From Phycisphaerae bacterium (lineage in GTDB: Bacteria > Planctomycetota > Phycisphaerae > Tepidisphaerales > Tepidisphaeraceae), in the NCBI GenBank assembly GCA_025936175.1, contig JAICTV010000012.1:1-48524 (forward strand): a stretch of 48,524 nt of DNA, written 5' to 3'. The position numbers and the translations under genes were made by a program. Under the pieces are notes generated by a model. The model searched no databases, was not told the origin of the DNA, and saw nothing but the letters and a program-made list of their open reading frames with translations. Positions 8,897 to 33,823 of the stretch are shown here, piece after piece. The stretch's first letter is position 1; each line of letters opens with the position of its first letter.

Positions 8897-12400
<3,504 letters not shown>

Positions 12401-19646: not shown

Positions 19647-19725
19647 TGTCATCCCGAGGTACTCCGAGGGATCTCGGACGCCGCTCGTCACCGAGATCCC
19701 CCGCGGAGTACCGCTCGGGATGACA
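19647..19725. repeat. Family-A palindromic element
   Basis: A 79-bp inverted repeat starting tgtcatcccgaggtactccg and ending with its near-complement cggagtaccgctcgggatgaca. It occupies most of the gap between the oxidoreductase and dipeptidase genes. The same family occurs at 25239, 30423, 32377, 33716 and 48507. Confidence 0.9.
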
Positions 19726-25373: not shown

Positions 25374-26759
25374 ATGCACAAAGACTTCAAAGGCTGGCTC
25401 AAACAACACGAAGGACGCGCGTACGAGCTTCACGAGAAGCACGTCAATCCGGTCTTCGTCAAAATGCTCCGGACGATCGGCTTCGACAAGGGCTACACCC
25501 GCGGCGAAGGGTGCTACCTCTGGGATTCGGCGGGCAACAAATATCTCGACCTGCTCACCGGCTGGGGCGTGTTCGCGCTCGGTCGCAATCACCCCAAGGT
25601 GAAAGCGATCATGAGCCAGCTCATCGACCAGGACATGCCCAACCTGGTCCGTATGGAGTGCAGCCTGCTCAGCGGCCTCGTCGCCGAACGACTAGTCACG
25701 CACGCGGGCGCGGGCCTTGAGCGCGTCTTCTTCTGCAACAGCGGCGCCGAGTGCGTCGAAGGCGCGATCAAGTTCGCGCGCTGCTCGACCGGCCGGCAGG
25801 AGATCGTCTATTGCGACCACGGCTTCCACGGTTTGACGACCGGATCATTGGCACTGAACGGCGCCGACTTCTTCCGCGAGCGCTTCGGCGATCTGATGCC
25901 CGGCACGCGGAAAGTCCCGTTCAACGATCTCGAAGCCCTCGAGCGCGAGCTGGCGAGCAAGAAAGCCGCCGCCTTCATCGTCGAGCCGGTGCAGGGCAAA
26001 TCGTGCGAGGTCGTGAAAGACGGCTACCTTGCCGAGGCGCAGCGCATCTGCAAAAAGCACGGCACGCTGCTCGTGCTCGACGAGATCCAGACGGGTCTCG
26101 GGCGCACCGGGCGATGGTTCTGCTTCCAGCATTGGCCCGACGTTCAGCCCGACATCGTCTGCTGCTCGAAAATCCTGTCCGGCGGATACGTTCCGGTCGG
26201 CGCGATCATCACCACCGCCAAAGTCATGGACTGCGTCTTCAACTCGATGGAGCGCTGCGTCGTCCACTCCAACACCTTCGGCCAGAATGATCTGGCGATG
26301 GCCGCGGCATTGGCGACGCTCTACGTGATCGAGGAAGACAAGCTCGTCGAGAACGCCGCGATCATGGGCGAGTACGCGATGACCCGCCTGCGCGAGATCG
26401 GCAAGGGCTGTCCCTTCGTCACCGACGTGCGCGGCAAAGGCCTGATGTTCGGCATCGACTTCGCGCGGCCCAGGGAATCGCTGAAGCTCAAGATGGCCTG
26501 GGACATGCTGCACAAGCTGAACTTCGGCGTGTTCGGGCAGATGATCATCATCCCGCTGCTGCAGAAGCACCGCATCCTCACGCAGGTGGCGGGCTATCAC
26601 ACGGAGGTCATCAAGTTCCTCCCGCCGATGACGGTGACGAAGCAGGACATGGACTGGTTCCTCGCCGCGATGCAGGATGTGCTCGATGAAACACAACGTT
26701 TCCCCGGCACGGCGTGGGATACCGTCCTGGGCTTGGCGAAGCGCGCGATGAAGGCATGA
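25374..26759 (+). CDS. hpnO: HpnO-like class-III aminotransferase
   Basis: A 461-residue PLP transaminase. Landmarks are YLWDSAGNKYLDLLTGWGVF, the cofactor loop FFCNSGAECVEGAIKFAR, the Asp motif LLVLDEIQTGLGRTG and the Schiff-base lysine Lys266 in CCSKILSGGYVPVGA. In hopanoid producers HpnO makes aminobacteriohopanetriol by transamination of the side chain. The assignment rests on fold plus position beside shc, hpnN, hpnH and hpnG. Other class-III transaminases cannot be excluded by sequence alone. It is followed after about 65 bp by hpnN on the same strand and is divergent from shc, with a family-A element between. Confidence 0.82.
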   Translation: MHKDFKGWLKQHEGRAYELHEKHVNPVFVKMLRTIGFDKGYTRGEGCYLWDSAGNKYLDLLTGWGVFALGRNHPKVKAIMSQLIDQDMPNLVRMECSLLSGLVAERLVTHAGAGLERVFFCNSGAECVEGAIKFARCSTGRQEIVYCDHGFHGLTTGSLALNGADFFRERFGDLMPGTRKVPFNDLEALERELASKKAAAFIVEPVQGKSCEVVKDGYLAEAQRICKKHGTLLVLDEIQTGLGRTGRWFCFQHWPDVQPDIVCCSKILSGGYVPVGAIITTAKVMDCVFNSMERCVVHSNTFGQNDLAMAAALATLYVIEEDKLVENAAIMGEYAMTRLREIGKGCPFVTDVRGKGLMFGIDFARPRESLKLKMAWDMLHKLNFGVFGQMIIIPLLQKHRILTQVAGYHTEVIKFLPPMTVTKQDMDWFLAAMQDVLDETQRFPGTAWDTVLGLAKRAMKA

Positions 26760-26823
26760 CGTTCCGCGCACCGGTCCCTCCCAACTTGCGTCTGCCATCC
26801 ACGGCGTGGAAATCGGTAACCTC

Positions 26824-29550
26824 ATGCGCCTCGTCCATCGCTCTCTCCTGATCTCGGTGCTGCACGTCGTGACGCACCCCAAGCGGGTGCTGACGATCGC
26901 GTTCCTGCTCGCCGCCGCCTGCGTCGCCCTGGCGATGTGGAAGCTCAACATCTCGACCGATCAGAACAAGCTGTTCGATCCGAACGTGTCGTTCTTCCAG
27001 GATTACCTGCGCTACGTCGAGAAGTTCCCCGAGAACGAGGCGATCTACGTCCTGATCGAGGCGAAAGACCGCGCGCATCCGCCGGCGGTCGAGCGCTGGA
27101 CGGCGCTGGCCGATGCCATCACCGCGCGCGTCGCCGCGCTGACCAAGTACGTCAAGTCCGTCGATAGCAAAGTGCCGGTGGACAAGCTCGGCGCACAGGG
27201 GCTGCTCTTCGACGATCCCACGCTGGTGAAGCAGAACTTCGAGGAGATCAAGCGCTTCATCCCGCTCGCCAAGCTCTGGGCGGAGAGACCGACGATCCTG
27301 ACGCGCATCCTTGGGGAAACGCCGCTCGAGCGTTTCATCGCCGCGCTCAACACGCAGCCGGCGGATGAGGAGACGGCCGGCTTTGTCGGTCCCGTCGCCG
27401 GGAGCTGGGTGACCACGCTGCGCAGCGGCGACGAGCCTCTCAAAGTCGGCAAACAGGTGCCGGATCTGGCGGCGCTGGGCGCGACCGATCCGTCGCGCCT
27501 GGGCTACTACTACGTCCCCAACGAGAGCGACCCGTCGCAGTTCGTCATGCTCGTTCGCGTCTACAACCGACAGGATTACACGTCGCTGACGGCGATCTCC
27601 GAGACGGTCGAGGCGATTCGCGCCGCCGTCCGCGAGGCGATGCCGCCGTTCGCCAATGAGTTCACCGCCGGCGTGACGGGCCGGCCGGCGCTGGATGCCG
27701 ACGAGATGCGCACCAGCGATCGCGACAGCCACAACGCCGAGGTGATCGCGATGATCGCCGTGCTCGCGGGGCTGATCGTGATGCTCCGCTCCGTCTGGCT
27801 CGCCATCGCCGGCGAGATCGCGCTGGTCTTCGGCATCGGCTGGACGTTCGGCTGGGCGACGCTGTCCGTCGGCGAGTTGAACCTCCTCTCGATCGTCTTC
27901 CTGCTCGCGCTGATCGGCATCGGGATGGATTATCTCGTGCAGATCCTGACGCGCTATCGGCAGGAGGTGCGCCGCCGGCGCACGCCACAGACGATCTGGG
28001 TCTCCGTCTTCCGCCACGTCGCCGCGCCGATCAACACGGCCTGCATGGGGGCGGCGGGGGCGTTCCTCGTCTCGGCGCTGACGCGCTTCCGCGGCGCCGC
28101 GCAGCTCGGCGTGATCGCGGGCGGCGGGCTGCTCCTCTGCCTCGCGGCGGGATACACCGTGCTTCCCGCGCTGCTCACGCTCTTCCCGCCGCGCTTCCGC
28201 GCCGATCACGATGACGACGTTCAGCGCGCGCTCGCGCGCCTGGGCCCGCCCGCGCGGGGGACGCGAAAAATCCTCTGGCTCCCGATCCTCTGGCTGTTCC
28301 TGCTGATCCTCGCCGCGCCGTTCGCACGCCGCACCGGTTTCAATCCCGGATTGATCGACCTGCAGGCGCCAAACCTCGAGTCGGTGAAGCTGGTGAACAA
28401 GCTCGAGACCTGGTCGTACACGATCCTCTCGAAGAACCTCGACGTCCTCCGCACCGCGCGCGACAAAGCACGCCAGTCGCCCCTGGTCGATCGCACCGAA
28501 AGCATCCTCATCGCCTGCGACAACCTCGACTGGCTCCGCGCGCACCAGAGTGAGCTTCCGGCGATCGCGTGGAGCGAGCCGAACGCCGTCGACGCCAACG
28601 ATCTCTCGAAAATCGCCAAAAAGGCGGATGCGCTGGCGAAGCGCTACGCCAATTTCAAGAGCGCAAGCACGCCCCTTGCCGTCTTCGCGAAATTGTTAGC
28701 CGATGCGAATGGCAACGACGCCACCCGCATCGCCGCGCGACTGTCCGACTGGCAAAAGCAGTTTATCGTCCAGCTCCAGAACGCCATCGCGCCGTTCCAT
28801 CCCGGCGATCTCGATCTCGCGGCGCTGCCGATGGAGCTGAAGCAGCACTACGTCGCGAGTGACGGCACTTTCGCGCTCTACGTCTACCCGCGCGAGGACC
28901 TGTGGAACCGCGCGCACCTCGCCGCCTTCGTCGGCGACATCGAAGCGCGCATGAACGACCTGCCGACGAACGAAGCCACCGTCACCGGCATCGTGCCGAA
29001 TATTTACTACTCCACCAACGCGATCGAAAAATCCTTCTACCGCGCCACCGCCTACGCGCTGGTACTGATCTTCATCCTCGTCGCGATCGACCTGCAGAGC
29101 ATTCGCCAGACGCTGATGGCCGTCAGCGTCCTGGCGCTCGGCCTGCCGATGCTCGTCGCCATCCTCGGCATCACCAACGTCGATTGGAACTTCGCCAACT
29201 TCTTCGGCCTGCCGATCCTCATCGGCGCCGGCCACGAGTACGGCGTGTTCATGGTCCACCGTTATCGCGAAGCGTGCAAAGACCCGCGCCGCGTCTGGCG
29301 GAGATGGGACGTCGCCGACAAGGCGCTGCTGCTGTGCGCCTACGTCACCTGCACGAGCTTCGGCTTCTTCTGGCTGATCGCCGAACACCGCGGCCTCAAG
29401 AGCCTGGGCATGGTGATGGCGGTCGGCACCGCCTGCATTTATCTTGCCACCATCACGGTCCTGCGGCCGCTGCTCATCTGGCGACTCAACCGCAGACCCA
29501 GGGCGAAAGACTGCATAGAAGAAAATGGAACTGTGGCAACTCCTCGGTGA
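26824..29550 (+). CDS. hpnN: HpnN, hopanoid-associated RND/MMPL transporter
   Basis: A 908-residue inner-membrane transporter. The layout is typical of the hopanoid RND family: TM1 near residues 20-40, a large periplasmic loop (about 45-300), five close TM helices (about 310-460), TM7 near 480 (ILWLPILWLFLLILAAPFA), a second periplasmic loop (about 505-730), then five TM helices to the C-terminus. In Rhodopseudomonas palustris HpnN moves hopanoids to the outer membrane. The start is set at the ATG at 26824; a GTG at 26806 would add six residues, and neither has a strong ribosome-binding site. The stop overlaps the next gene by 26 bp, indicating coupled translation. Confidence 0.92.
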   Translation: MRLVHRSLLISVLHVVTHPKRVLTIAFLLAAACVALAMWKLNISTDQNKLFDPNVSFFQDYLRYVEKFPENEAIYVLIEAKDRAHPPAVERWTALADAITARVAALTKYVKSVDSKVPVDKLGAQGLLFDDPTLVKQNFEEIKRFIPLAKLWAERPTILTRILGETPLERFIAALNTQPADEETAGFVGPVAGSWVTTLRSGDEPLKVGKQVPDLAALGATDPSRLGYYYVPNESDPSQFVMLVRVYNRQDYTSLTAISETVEAIRAAVREAMPPFANEFTAGVTGRPALDADEMRTSDRDSHNAEVIAMIAVLAGLIVMLRSVWLAIAGEIALVFGIGWTFGWATLSVGELNLLSIVFLLALIGIGMDYLVQILTRYRQEVRRRRTPQTIWVSVFRHVAAPINTACMGAAGAFLVSALTRFRGAAQLGVIAGGGLLLCLAAGYTVLPALLTLFPPRFRADHDDDVQRALARLGPPARGTRKILWLPILWLFLLILAAPFARRTGFNPGLIDLQAPNLESVKLVNKLETWSYTILSKNLDVLRTARDKARQSPLVDRTESILIACDNLDWLRAHQSELPAIAWSEPNAVDANDLSKIAKKADALAKRYANFKSASTPLAVFAKLLADANGNDATRIAARLSDWQKQFIVQLQNAIAPFHPGDLDLAALPMELKQHYVASDGTFALYVYPREDLWNRAHLAAFVGDIEARMNDLPTNEATVTGIVPNIYYSTNAIEKSFYRATAYALVLIFILVAIDLQSIRQTLMAVSVLALGLPMLVAILGITNVDWNFANFFGLPILIGAGHEYGVFMVHRYREACKDPRRVWRRWDVADKALLLCAYVTCTSFGFFWLIAEHRGLKSLGMVMAVGTACIYLATITVLRPLLIWRLNRRPRAKDCIEENGTVATPR

Positions 29551-32050
29551 TCTGCATCCCAAGCTCGTCCACTTCCCGCTCGTGCTTTTGCTCGTGGGAC
29601 TGCTCTTCGATCTGGGCGGCTTGATCGGCCGATCCGAGCGCAGCCACTGGGCCGCCAAGACGCTCACCATCGCCGGCACGGTGATGCTGCTGATCACCTT
29701 CATCTGCGGCATCTACGCCGAGATCTGGGCCGGCCGCGCGCTCGTCCCGCACCACCAGATCGAGCTGCACGAGCTGGCGGCGAACGTCGCGTCGTGGGGC
29801 TTCGTCATCCTCGCCGCCTGGCGATTGCTGATCACGACCGACGCCTCTTCCGTGGCGCGGGCCTCTGGCCCGAGCGCTCCAGCGGAGCGATGCTCCCACG
29901 AAGATGCGGCTCAAGCCGCGAGTGCTCGGGCCAGACGCGCAGGCCACAGGAGTCGCGCGCTCATCGCCTACGTCTGCATCGGTCTGTCCTGGTACGTCCT
30001 GCTCACCGTCACCGCGCATCTCGGCGGGCAGCTCATCACGGACTACGGCGCTTCGGTCACCGGTGCACGAGGCGCCAGCTCGCCTTCGCTGCACGACCTC
30101 AACACGCTTGCCACGCGGCAGACCGATCTGAACCTCCGCTACTCGGAGATGATGCATCACGTCTTCGGTTACCTGACGCTGGCGCTTTCCGGAGTCCTCC
30201 TCGCCGCCGCCGTCCTTCCGAAACGCGCGGAAAAACTCAAGTGGGTCGGCCCGACGCTGCTCCTGCTCGGCGGGAGCTTTCTCTTCTTCTTCGCCGACCT
30301 CGATCTCTACCGCCTGACGGACCTGCGCCAGCTCCGCGATCGAGAGGTGCAGCTCCACAAGACGATCGCGATCGTGCTGATTGCCGTCGGCGCGGCGGGC
30401 TTACGTGCGGCACGGCGACGAAGTGTCATGCTGCGGGACTCCGAAGCATCCGGCTCCGGTCGCGCAGATCCTTCGCGGATTACCGCTCAGGATGACACCG
30501 CTGACAGGGGGGCGACGATCTCGAAGTGGTCGCATCAACAGGCGAAGCTCGTCGCGATCATGGCCCTCATCGGCGGCGGGATGCTCTTTACGCACGTGCA
30601 CACCGTCGCCCCGTATGCCAACGTCGCCGCGGGAGTCTACATCGCGCACGTGGTGATGGGACTGGTCGCGCTGTCGATCGGCGCCTCGAGCCTGCTCGGC
30701 GAAGCGCTGCCGCGCTGGCGAAGCGCCTTCGCCGTCGTCTTCGCGCTCTGCATGCTCGCCGAGTCGGTCCTGCTCGTCACCTACAACGAAGGCCTGCCCT
30801 GGTACATCGGGTACGGCCGCTACAACCGCTGGGGCGCGACCGCCGGCGGCACCGTCGCGCCGTTCGGCGATTTCCGCGCCGAGCTCACCTTCGACAACGC
30901 CACGCAGCGCCTCGACGTCTACCTCCGCGATCGCTTCAAAGACGATGCGACCGATGTGAAAACTCCGCCGCGCGAAGTCCTGATCTCGCGCGGCTACGAA
31001 CAGATCGCCGTCCCGTTGACCTTGGCGCCGGGGTTGGGTCATTACCGTGGCGTCGCGCCGTTCCTGAAGGACACCCCGGCGTTTTCCGCGCGCATGCGCA
31101 TGCCCGGCCACGGCACCGGCTACTTCGATCCGTGGGTTACGCCGATCATCGCGGCAGTCCCGCCCAACGAACTCGCGCGCTTCGTCTGTCCGATGCACGA
31201 GGGCGTTCGTGCCGCGGAGCAGGGCCTGTGTCCGCTCTGCAAAATGCCGCTGGCGCCGATCGACGCTTCGCCGCGCACCACGCTGCACGATTCGGCGTAC
31301 ACGATGGATTTCTCAGCGCCGCCGGCGGGCGCGACGCGATCGGTGACCCTGAGGCTCACGCCGACGAAGGACGGGCAAATCGTCCGTGACCTGGCGCGCG
31401 TACACGAGTACCTGATGCACCTGATCGTCGTGTCCGACGACCTGAGCTTCTTCGATCACGTTCACCCGCAGCCGCAGGCGGACGGCTCCTTCGCGTTGCC
31501 GTACACGCTGCCGCGGGACGGAAAGTACCTGCTCTTCGCCGACGTGACCCCCGCCGGCGCCCGCAGCCAGGTGTTTCGGATTCCGATCGAGATCGGAAGC
31601 GTCGACCGGCGGGCGACGTCGATCGCGCTGACGAAGACGGCTGCATCCGCGACGCCGCTGGCGGCGGATCCCGCGTCGACCGTCGAGCTCCTGCCGACCC
31701 CCCGCGCCCTCGTCGCCGGCACGCACGCGCAGCTTCTCTTCCGCCTGTCGCGCAGCGCCCGGCCCGTCACCGACCTCTCCCTCTACATCGGCGCGATGGG
31801 CCACTGCGTGATCATCAGCCAGGACACGCAGACCTATCTCCACTGCCATCCGGAGCAGCTCCTCCCACCCGCGCCCGACGACCGCGGCGGCCCGGACGTC
31901 GCCTTCCACACCACGTTCCCGAGGGCGGGCCGCTACAAGGTCTGGGGCCAGTTCAAGCGCAGCGACCAGATCCTCGTCGCCGACTTCGTCATCGACGTCG
32001 CCGAGCCGCTCCTCCCGGCGAAGCTGATGAACTTCTTCATCGACGACTGA
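29525..32050 (+). CDS. DUF2231-type membrane protein fused to heavy-metal-binding domain, with two repeat-element insertions
   Basis: An 841-residue protein overlapping hpnN by 26 bp. The N-terminal half is a DUF2231-type membrane region (LHPKLVHFPLVLLLVGLLFD at residues 10-29, then several more TM helices, including WSHQQAKLVAIMAL... after residue 325). A cytochrome- or metal-like His pattern is present (HPKLVHFP, HHQIELHEL, MMHHVFGY). A heavy-metal-binding motif lies near residues 553-580 (FVCPMHEG ... GLCPLCKMPL). A beta-rich, His-containing C-terminal region follows (FDHVHPQP, MGHCVII, YLHCHPEQL) and is likely outside the membrane. Residues 110-141 and 300-325 come from inverted-repeat elements in frame. 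Possible roles are copper/metal handling or redox at the membrane; the tie to hopanoid export is inferred from overlap only. Confidence 0.88.
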   Translation: MELWQLLGDLHPKLVHFPLVLLLVGLLFDLGGLIGRSERSHWAAKTLTIAGTVMLLITFICGIYAEIWAGRALVPHHQIELHELAANVASWGFVILAAWRLLITTDASSVARASGPSAPAERCSHEDAAQAASARARRAGHRSRALIAYVCIGLSWYVLLTVTAHLGGQLITDYGASVTGARGASSPSLHDLNTLATRQTDLNLRYSEMMHHVFGYLTLALSGVLLAAAVLPKRAEKLKWVGPTLLLLGGSFLFFFADLDLYRLTDLRQLRDREVQLHKTIAIVLIAVGAAGLRAARRRSVMLRDSEASGSGRADPSRITAQDDTADRGATISKWSHQQAKLVAIMALIGGGMLFTHVHTVAPYANVAAGVYIAHVVMGLVALSIGASSLLGEALPRWRSAFAVVFALCMLAESVLLVTYNEGLPWYIGYGRYNRWGATAGGTVAPFGDFRAELTFDNATQRLDVYLRDRFKDDATDVKTPPREVLISRGYEQIAVPLTLAPGLGHYRGVAPFLKDTPAFSARMRMPGHGTGYFDPWVTPIIAAVPPNELARFVCPMHEGVRAAEQGLCPLCKMPLAPIDASPRTTLHDSAYTMDFSAPPAGATRSVTLRLTPTKDGQIVRDLARVHEYLMHLIVVSDDLSFFDHVHPQPQADGSFALPYTLPRDGKYLLFADVTPAGARSQVFRIPIEIGSVDRRATSIALTKTAASATPLAADPASTVELLPTPRALVAGTHAQLLFRLSRSARPVTDLSLYIGAMGHCVIISQDTQTYLHCHPEQLLPPAPDDRGGPDVAFHTTFPRAGRYKVWGQFKRSDQILVADFVIDVAEPLLPAKLMNFFIDD
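29852..29946. repeat. Family-B palindromic element inside a coding gene
   Basis: The left arm begins gtggcgcgggcctctggccc and the right arm is its imperfect inverse ending gcgcaggccac. An inner hairpin (gcggctcaagccgc) lies toward the right side. The 95-bp element lies between predicted TM helices of the DUF2231-type protein and encodes a Ser/Ala/Arg-rich stretch. Confidence 0.75.
30423..30497. repeat. Family-A palindromic element inside a coding gene
   Basis: Starts tgtcatgctgcgggactccg and ends gcggattaccgctcaggatg + aca. It is exactly 75 bp (25 codons), so the reading frame is kept. It lies in a loop of the DUF2231-type protein and encodes residues about 300-325 (VMLRDSEASGSG...). The arms have diverged more than in the intergenic copies. 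Confidence 0.78.
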
Positions 32051-32376: not shown

Positions 32377-32451
32377 TGTCATCCCGAGGTACTCCGAGGG
32401 ATCTCGGACACCAGTGACGATCGAGATCCCTCGGAGTACCTCGGGATGACA
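32377..32451. repeat. Family-A palindromic element, perfect 30-bp arms
   Basis: Arms 32377-32406 (tgtcatcccgaggtactccg + agggatctcg) and 32422-32451 are perfect inverse complements over 30 bp, with a 15-bp centre. This is the best-preserved family-A copy in the window. Confidence 0.95.
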
Positions 32452-32689
32452 GGTCCTGATGCTTCGCGCAGGGCGTTAACCGATCGCACCCTGATGGCAC
32501 CGGCGCGCAATGTTGCCGGAGTACCGGGGAGAGGGAAGCGGAAAAACGAACCCAATCGAAGCCAACGCAAAACCGCGTTGGCGGGGTCAAAAATGCTGAA
32601 AGGAGGTGATTTGGACCCCACGCGGATTACAAAACGAAGCCAACGGCGCACGGCGGCGCGCGCATCCTGAGGAGAGCCGCCCTCGCGGT

Positions 32690-33661
32690 TCAGAACTGTC
32701 CGCGGATGACCAGCCCGACGTACGGCACATCCTGCAGCTCCGCCCGCGTGCTCAGGTCGCGCACGTCGAAGCCGTCGTAAAAATGCTGCTCGAACGCGTA
32801 GCCGACCGCCAGCGCCATGTCGAAGTACGCCCCCTTGAGCACGAAGTCCGGCTCGACGAAGCGGATGCCCGCCTCGGCGCGCGACATCTGATAGAACAGC
32901 CGCTGCGTCTGCGGCCGCTCATCCTGGCGGAAGGCGTTGAAGAAATTCGAGAAGCCGCTGTAGACGTGCCAGTGCTTGCTGATCGCGTAGTCGAGCGTGA
33001 CGTCCGCCGTGTACGGCACCTCGTAGCCCGCCTCGAGCTGCAGGTGTTCGAGGATCGTCCAATTGGCTTCGCTGCGCGGATAGCCGAAGGCGACGCGGCA
33101 GGTGTCGGTGTGATGGATGTACTGGAAGCCGGGCAGCGGCACGTCGGGGAGGAACGCGCCGGCGCCGTTCCAGTCGATGCTCACCACCAGGTCGTCGCTG
33201 TCGTTCAGTTTCTTCTCCGCGATCAGGTGGGCGATGCCGAAGACGCCCTCGGAGTCGGCGAAGGGATTGTTGCCGCTGAAGCCGGCGCCCAGGACGGCGG
33301 AAAGCTTGAAGTCGTCGCCGATCATCCCCAGCGGAATGCCCGCCGCCATGCTGATCTCGTCGAGGTGGTCCGGCAGCAGCGGCGAATCGGTGTCGAAGTT
33401 CATCGTCACCCAGCGGTAGCCCAGGTGCAGGGAGTCTTGTGAATTCGGATCGAGTCGGAATCGCCCGGTCGAGTCCCAGAAGAAGACCTGGGCCGTGTTG
33501 TTCGAGCCCTGCACGTCCGACTGCGCCTGATAGAACGGCCTGTCGAGCGTCAGGCCCCACGCCTTGTCGGCGAAGCCGCCGAGCATCAGGCGGCTGTCGG
33601 TCTGGGCGAAGCAGAGAGGTGCACAGAACGAGATGAGCAGGGCGAAGGCGAATGGTCGCAA
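32690..33661 (-). CDS. Outer-membrane beta-barrel protein, unknown function
   Basis: A 323-residue protein. The start is taken as the TTG at 33661 because AAAGGAG (33668-33674) lies 6 bp upstream and a signal peptide follows directly (LRPFAFALLISFCAPLCFAQ). Longer in-frame starts would translate the family-A element at 33716-33790 and are rejected. The mature part is rich in alternating aromatic/polar strands with Gly turns (FKLSAVLGAGFSG, WHVYSGFSNFFNAF) and ends in Phe (VGLVIRGQF), the usual beta-signal of barrels inserted by BamA. It lies downstream of hpnE on the same strand, 162 bp away. An outer-membrane role connected to hopanoids is possible but not shown. Confidence 0.8.
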   Translation of the reverse strand: MRPFAFALLISFCAPLCFAQTDSRLMLGGFADKAWGLTLDRPFYQAQSDVQGSNNTAQVFFWDSTGRFRLDPNSQDSLHLGYRWVTMNFDTDSPLLPDHLDEISMAAGIPLGMIGDDFKLSAVLGAGFSGNNPFADSEGVFGIAHLIAEKKLNDSDDLVVSIDWNGAGAFLPDVPLPGFQYIHHTDTCRVAFGYPRSEANWTILEHLQLEAGYEVPYTADVTLDYAISKHWHVYSGFSNFFNAFRQDERPQTQRLFYQMSRAEAGIRFVEPDFVLKGAYFDMALAVGYAFEQHFYDGFDVRDLSTRAELQDVPYVGLVIRGQF

Positions 33662-33715
33662 GCGAGGCTCCTTTGCGTCAGCGTCAGGGCAAGTGGCGCG
33701 GTTTACGTAGCAACC

Positions 33716-33790
33716 TGTCATCCCGAGATGTTCGGAGGGATCGCGGACGCCAGTGGTCACCGAGATCCCTGGGAATACCTCGGGATGACA
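33716..33790. repeat. Family-A palindromic element
   Basis: Starts tgtcatcccgagatgttcgg and ends gaatacctcgggatgaca. The arms are imperfect. It lies between hpnE and the outer-membrane protein gene, both read leftward, so it may affect how much of the transcript reaches the downstream gene. Confidence 0.88.
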
Positions 33791-33823
33791 GCACTCGCGC
33801 CCGCTACGCAACCGAGGGCTCGA

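Follow-up and report, generated by a model that had tools for sequence, protein, structure and literature searches.

ORF 29525-32050 (+) of a Phycisphaerae bacterium probably encodes an inner-membrane protein that captures or buffers a metal, most likely copper, and hands it to export systems, its place behind an hpnN-like gene being the product of a local rearrangement. The ORF lies in the window, the whole 48,524-nucleotide stretch of contig JAICTV010000012.1 that was analysed. The encoded protein combines known parts and an unnamed module in a new arrangement, and it is most likely not a new partner in hopanoid transport.

25374-26759: class-III aminotransferase gene, before hpnN.
26806-29550, + strand: HpnN-like MMPL/RND transporter gene, immediately upstream of the ORF under study.
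29525-32050, + strand: the ORF under study, 841 amino acids, with ten predicted membrane helices, a heavy metal binding domain (HMBD) and a tandem metal module predicted to be periplasmic.
29525-29550, + strand: 26 bp shared with the hpnN-like gene at its 3' end, in its variable tail.
29552-29848, + strand: DUF2231 (Pfam), residues 10-108, the first part of the membrane domain.
29845-29962, + strand: 118-bp palindromic repeat element B, lying in frame in a loop between helices 3 and 4 that is predicted to be cytoplasmic; relatives lack it.
30424-30504, + strand: 81-bp palindromic repeat element A, lying in frame in a loop between helices 7 and 8 that is predicted to be cytoplasmic; relatives lack it.
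30851-31126, + strand: extra beta domain predicted at residues 443-534; missing from the relative L033.
31181-31258, + strand: HMBD (Pfam), residues 553-578.
31292-32011, + strand: residues 590-829, a module of tandem beta-sandwiches that holds H632-x12-H645-x-H647-P and H760-x12-H773-x-H775-P.

Architecture of the protein

The ORF comprises 841 codons and begins with an ATG that is a plausible start. In the relative L032, the ORF itself begins at an ATG aligned with this position, and L064 and L033 also have an ATG there; for these two, the start was set at the aligned ATG, their longest ORFs beginning further upstream. An AGAAGAA stretch lies immediately 5' of the start in the window. The overlap with hpnN described in an earlier note on this DNA is confirmed, positions 29525-29550 being shared with ORF 26806-29550 in a different reading frame. 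This 26-bp overlap is a fact of the sequence, and translation of the ORF may be coupled to that of the hpnN-like gene.

The same note described a membrane protein with DUF2231, a heavy-metal-binding motif and many histidines, and this description holds. Histidine accounts for 30 of the 841 residues, and both domains score above their Pfam cut-offs: DUF2231 (PF09990) reaches 32.1 bits against 26.4, and HMBD (PF19335), which contains the CPMH...CPLC motif, reaches 26.0 bits against 23.6. Repeat element B separates the remainder of DUF2231 from the matched part. In relatives the match is nearly full-length, scoring 67.5 bits in L064 and 61.2 bits in L032, both of which are free of the inserts and also carry an HMBD above the cut-off. 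DUF2231 reportedly appears in a paper on cysteines in DUF proteins.

Hydropathy indicates about ten helices in residues 12-420. Lysine and arginine together number 22 in the loops opposite the N-terminal side and 8 in the loops on the N-terminal side, with 15 of the 22 sitting in the two insert-bearing loops. This lean of positive charge suggests that both the N-terminus and the C-terminal half face the periplasm, along with the conserved histidines at the helix ends. The histidines in question, H11, H82, H211, H278, H357, H359 and H375, are invariant among the four sequences compared, and all fall on the predicted periplasmic side. They could instead bind b-type haem or copper in a membrane electron carrier, in which case the protein would act in metal-dependent redox chemistry and not as a carrier or buffer. 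The presence of DsbD-like and redoxin genes near L032 is consistent with such a role, but searches yielded neither a haem-protein family nor a solved relative, and the invariance is drawn from only four sequences, making an electron carrier unlikely.

In the tandem module, H632, H645, H647, H760, H773 and H775 are invariant across 19 aligned sequences, and the same columns are recovered in 15 sequences. Aligning one repeat to the other with hhalign gives a probability of 99.2. Structure prediction for the module alone gives a pLDDT of 81.4 and a pTM of 0.80; the model of the full-length protein is poor (pLDDT 65.8, pTM 0.43).

Searches by sequence among solved structures return no convincing match to the protein. 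The best match of the module there, PmoD, has an E-value of 0.87 and was taken as chance. Fold searches with the full model and with the module yield generic Ig-like folds of many functions. Those of the module include Zcp with cobalt (9mhn; Foldseek E 2.8e-4, TM 0.26), and a limited literature search on the Zcp match gave nothing relevant. The window protein has no match to the Pfam family YtkA (PF13115) at E 0.01. The likeness to YtkA consists of sub-threshold matches in several relatives, at 22.8 and 24.9 bits against a cut-off of 25.9, and no tested member reaches that cut-off.

Palindromic inserts

Palindromic DNA repeats in prokaryotes are reportedly the subject of a published paper (PMC3733652). 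The reading frame of ORF 29525-32050 stays open through both repeat elements, which recur elsewhere in the genome: at E 0.001, element B has 32 matches and element A has 51, with both-strand matches at one place counted separately. Among 56 copies placed with a simple gene finder of our own in 40 stretches and the window, 41 are intergenic, 7 lie at gene edges and 8 fall inside genes, including the two in this ORF. As described in passages of PMC10969869, Rickettsia palindromic elements are likewise genome-wide palindromic repeats that occur in frame within a protein. Elements A and B differ from them in organism and sequence, and in that most of the placed copies are intergenic.

Further repeats are present within the window. 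A 76-bp palindromic repeat, apparently akin to element A, occurs at 19647-19722, 32377-32452 and 33716-33791. Another copy of element B, with 70% identity, lies at 11761-11876 inside ORF 8897-12400 (-).

Module relatives and metal-export genes

Stand-alone modules in Bacillus, Paenibacillus, Moorena and planctomycetes share the tandem H-x12-HxHP architecture with the window protein at 22-34% alignment identity; they differ from it in lacking the membrane part, and many also lack an HMBD. CusA/CzcA-like genes accompany the module at 11 of 18 planctomycete loci, as judged from the stretch fetched for each. The 18 were hand-picked, mostly as better matches rather than at random, and several are related to one another. 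The 11 are L083-L091, L097 and L099. The gene is absent from L082, L092-L096 and L098; L092 spans just 5.5 kb, and L082 is a second module of the window genome itself. The name CusA/CzcA rests on TIGR00914 scores above the cut-off for L087 and L039 and on similarity to L087 for the rest. As a control, 52 stretches (12 hpnN loci and 40 other stretches of the window genome) were searched and contained no CusA/CzcA-like gene; they total 0.29 Mb, against 0.31 Mb for the 18 module loci. Two of three Moorena loci also carry such a gene, the third being cut at a contig end.

In an Anaerolineae genome, a copper P-type ATPase carrying two HMA domains is fused to the tandem histidine module in a single ORF (L043, 1979-5608). 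The module occupies residues 958-1208, after the ATPase part and in the same frame, and the ATPase scores 636.7 bits against TIGR01511 (copper-translocating P-type ATPase), for which the cut-off is 397. In Paenibacillus (L034), Pfam identifies a small HMA protein encoded directly downstream of the module gene. An HMA protein just downstream in L038 was assigned by its CxxC motif only. The stretches of the Bacillus-type loci L035-L037, L042, L044 and L045 contain neither CusA nor an HMA motif.

HMBD proteins are also encoded at the relatives' loci with CusA and P-type ATPases. The window protein has the CPMH...CPxCxM motif in common with PF19335 proteins from metal efflux systems and from P-type ATPases, and a Cu P1B ATPase described in PMC11213822 has a heavy metal binding domain. 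It differs from these proteins in having its HMBD between a ten-helix membrane part and the tandem histidine module, with no adaptor or ATPase domain.

The genes that combine the membrane part with the module have no copper gene next door. Their neighbours are hpnN, an RNase E/G gene, a PhyH gene with a DsbD-like gene, or a winged-helix gene with IspH, and the window contains no CusA match. Copper is suggested by the neighbours of the module's relatives. In the proposed mechanism, the ten predicted helices would bear conserved histidines at their periplasmic ends, and the large C-terminal part would lie in the periplasm and bind metal through the HMBD and the two beta-sandwich H-x12-HxHP repeats. 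The protein would then most likely capture or buffer periplasmic copper and deliver it to export systems, a hand-over suggested because relatives of the module adjoin CusA/CzcA pumps or are fused to a copper ATPase. Of the metal or redox component that, in the earlier note, could work with hopanoid transport, the metal side is supported by the HMBD, the histidine module, the CusA/CzcA neighbours and the CopA-type fusion; the hopanoid side is not supported, as the pair with hpnN is not conserved.

The HpnN-like neighbour

The transporter encoded upstream matches Pfam MMPL, with a weak match to ACR_tran, and is of the wider RND kind. Against TIGR03480 (HpnN) it scores 371 bits, below the cut-off of 751.85, although this is still its best NCBIfam match. 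The name HpnN is reasonable because the gene stands among shc, hpnC, hpnE and hpnH genes, and HpnN-like is used here rather than a trusted HpnN; the earlier identification as hpnN is backed by genomic place and not by the family cut-off. The flanks in the window include a hopene cyclase gene, and HpnE, HpnC and HpnH there score above their NCBIfam cut-offs. An HpnD-like protein (240.5 of 278.6 bits) and an HpnG-like protein in the flanks fall below theirs. The class-III aminotransferase stands in place of hpnO, a naming that is our own, with no NCBIfam model at cut-off. Between ORF 29525-32050 and hpnE lies a 373-aa ORF (32690-33811, -) that matches nothing in Pfam or NCBIfam at E 0.01.

Conservation of the pair with hpnN was assessed in 26 genomes of the order, 12 of which, the window genome included, have an hpnN-like gene. 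In the surroundings of hpnN fetched from the other 11, none has a relative of ORF 29525-32050 downstream, although in one of them (G465) only about 820 bp remain between hpnN and the contig end. A conserved pair is also absent from the genomes searched in the class (397), the phylum (392) and another phylum (288), where a miss is possible in the class and phylum searches because scoring was limited to the two or three best candidates in each genome, and from 15 named loci. Likewise, hpnN occurs in none of 80 loci flanking DUF2231, HMBD or module matches, with flanks mostly of 1.5 kb per side. No relative of the protein was found in viral contigs, and passages on hpnN and hpnO in one published paper do not name it. 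The aminotransferase gene, by comparison, precedes hpnN in 7 of the 10 order genomes in which that side is readable (L100-L103, L106, L108 and L110, but not L104, L105 or L107). It forms a conserved neighbour pair with hpnN, unlike ORF 29525-32050.

Within the order, the membrane part and the module occur together in the window genome and in G474, with two remnants in G460. Nine of the 11 other hpnN genomes lack a membrane-plus-module gene, and three of the nine have module matches only. In G474, contig C88 holds the closest intact relative (58%), which follows an RNase E/G gene, and hpnN is on C43. In G460, an N-terminal remnant of the first 70 residues lies behind a similar RNase E/G gene, and a C-terminal remnant of the last 40 residues follows about 3.3 kb beyond it. 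Opposite-strand genes for an NrfD and an Fe-S protein are located between the two remnants (L046 10001-13594, on contig C66). Outside the order, L032, on a Verrucomicrobia contig, has 50% identity over all of the query, and L033, on another, has 28% identity and no HMBD; neither is beside hpnN. The relative in G748 is on a different contig from the HpnN-like and cyclase matches.

These distributions bear on the possibility that the protein is a hopanoid-associated metal or redox protein acting with HpnN, either in hopanoid transport or in protecting the membrane. Besides the 26-bp overlap, this proposal draws on the RND pumps that accompany related modules, the HpnN-like protein being of that wider kind, and on the carriers themselves. 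All five (G000, G474, the remnant-bearing G460 and the L032 and L033 genomes) have genes for a hopene cyclase and an HpnN-like protein, the latter at only 25-33% identity in the last two genomes. Hopene cyclase is encoded in 10 of the 26 genomes of the order. With kinship ignored, the chance that all three order carriers fall among the cyclase genomes is 0.046, and the chance that they all fall among the 12 hpnN genomes is 0.085. The shared cyclase is a weak trace of a hopanoid link. Against it stand the missing gene behind hpnN in all 11 other hpnN genomes, the nine of these without any membrane-plus-module gene, and the separate contigs in G474 and G748, and linkage to hpn genes in other producers was not found among those 11 genomes. 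A role alongside HpnN is accordingly improbable. The pair that the earlier note proposed to look for in other planctomycetes was found in no other genome searched, the outcome that the note had named as refuting, and the suggestion of a so far undescribed hopanoid-associated protein is not supported; what survives of that association is the cyclase in the five carriers. It is similarly improbable that some hopanoid makers keep a dedicated periplasmic copper protein, here co-translated with HpnN, that ties metal state to hopanoid export, a role like the one that related modules play for CusA-type RND pumps.

A local rearrangement in this lineage, with no conserved functional pair, would account for the position behind hpnN. 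The conserved sequence of hpnN stops near residue 897 of 914 and the tails vary among relatives, as expected if the genes were joined at a dispensable tail. An assembly artefact that misjoined two contig pieces at about 29525 is very doubtful, since, although the draft genome comprises 384 contigs, with 86% completeness and 4% contamination, the ORF holds two repeat families present at many places in the same genome and its GC and GC3 (0.673 and 0.863) are similar to those of hpnN (0.653 and 0.885).

The analysis removes a tempting but unsupported partner in hopanoid transport, and the in-frame palindromic inserts provide a second, independent subject. An unnamed tandem histidine module recurs beside copper or heavy-metal export genes in several phyla, spanning planctomycetes, Cyanobacteria, Bacillus and Paenibacillus relatives, and Anaerolineae, which makes it a candidate periplasmic copper carrier.
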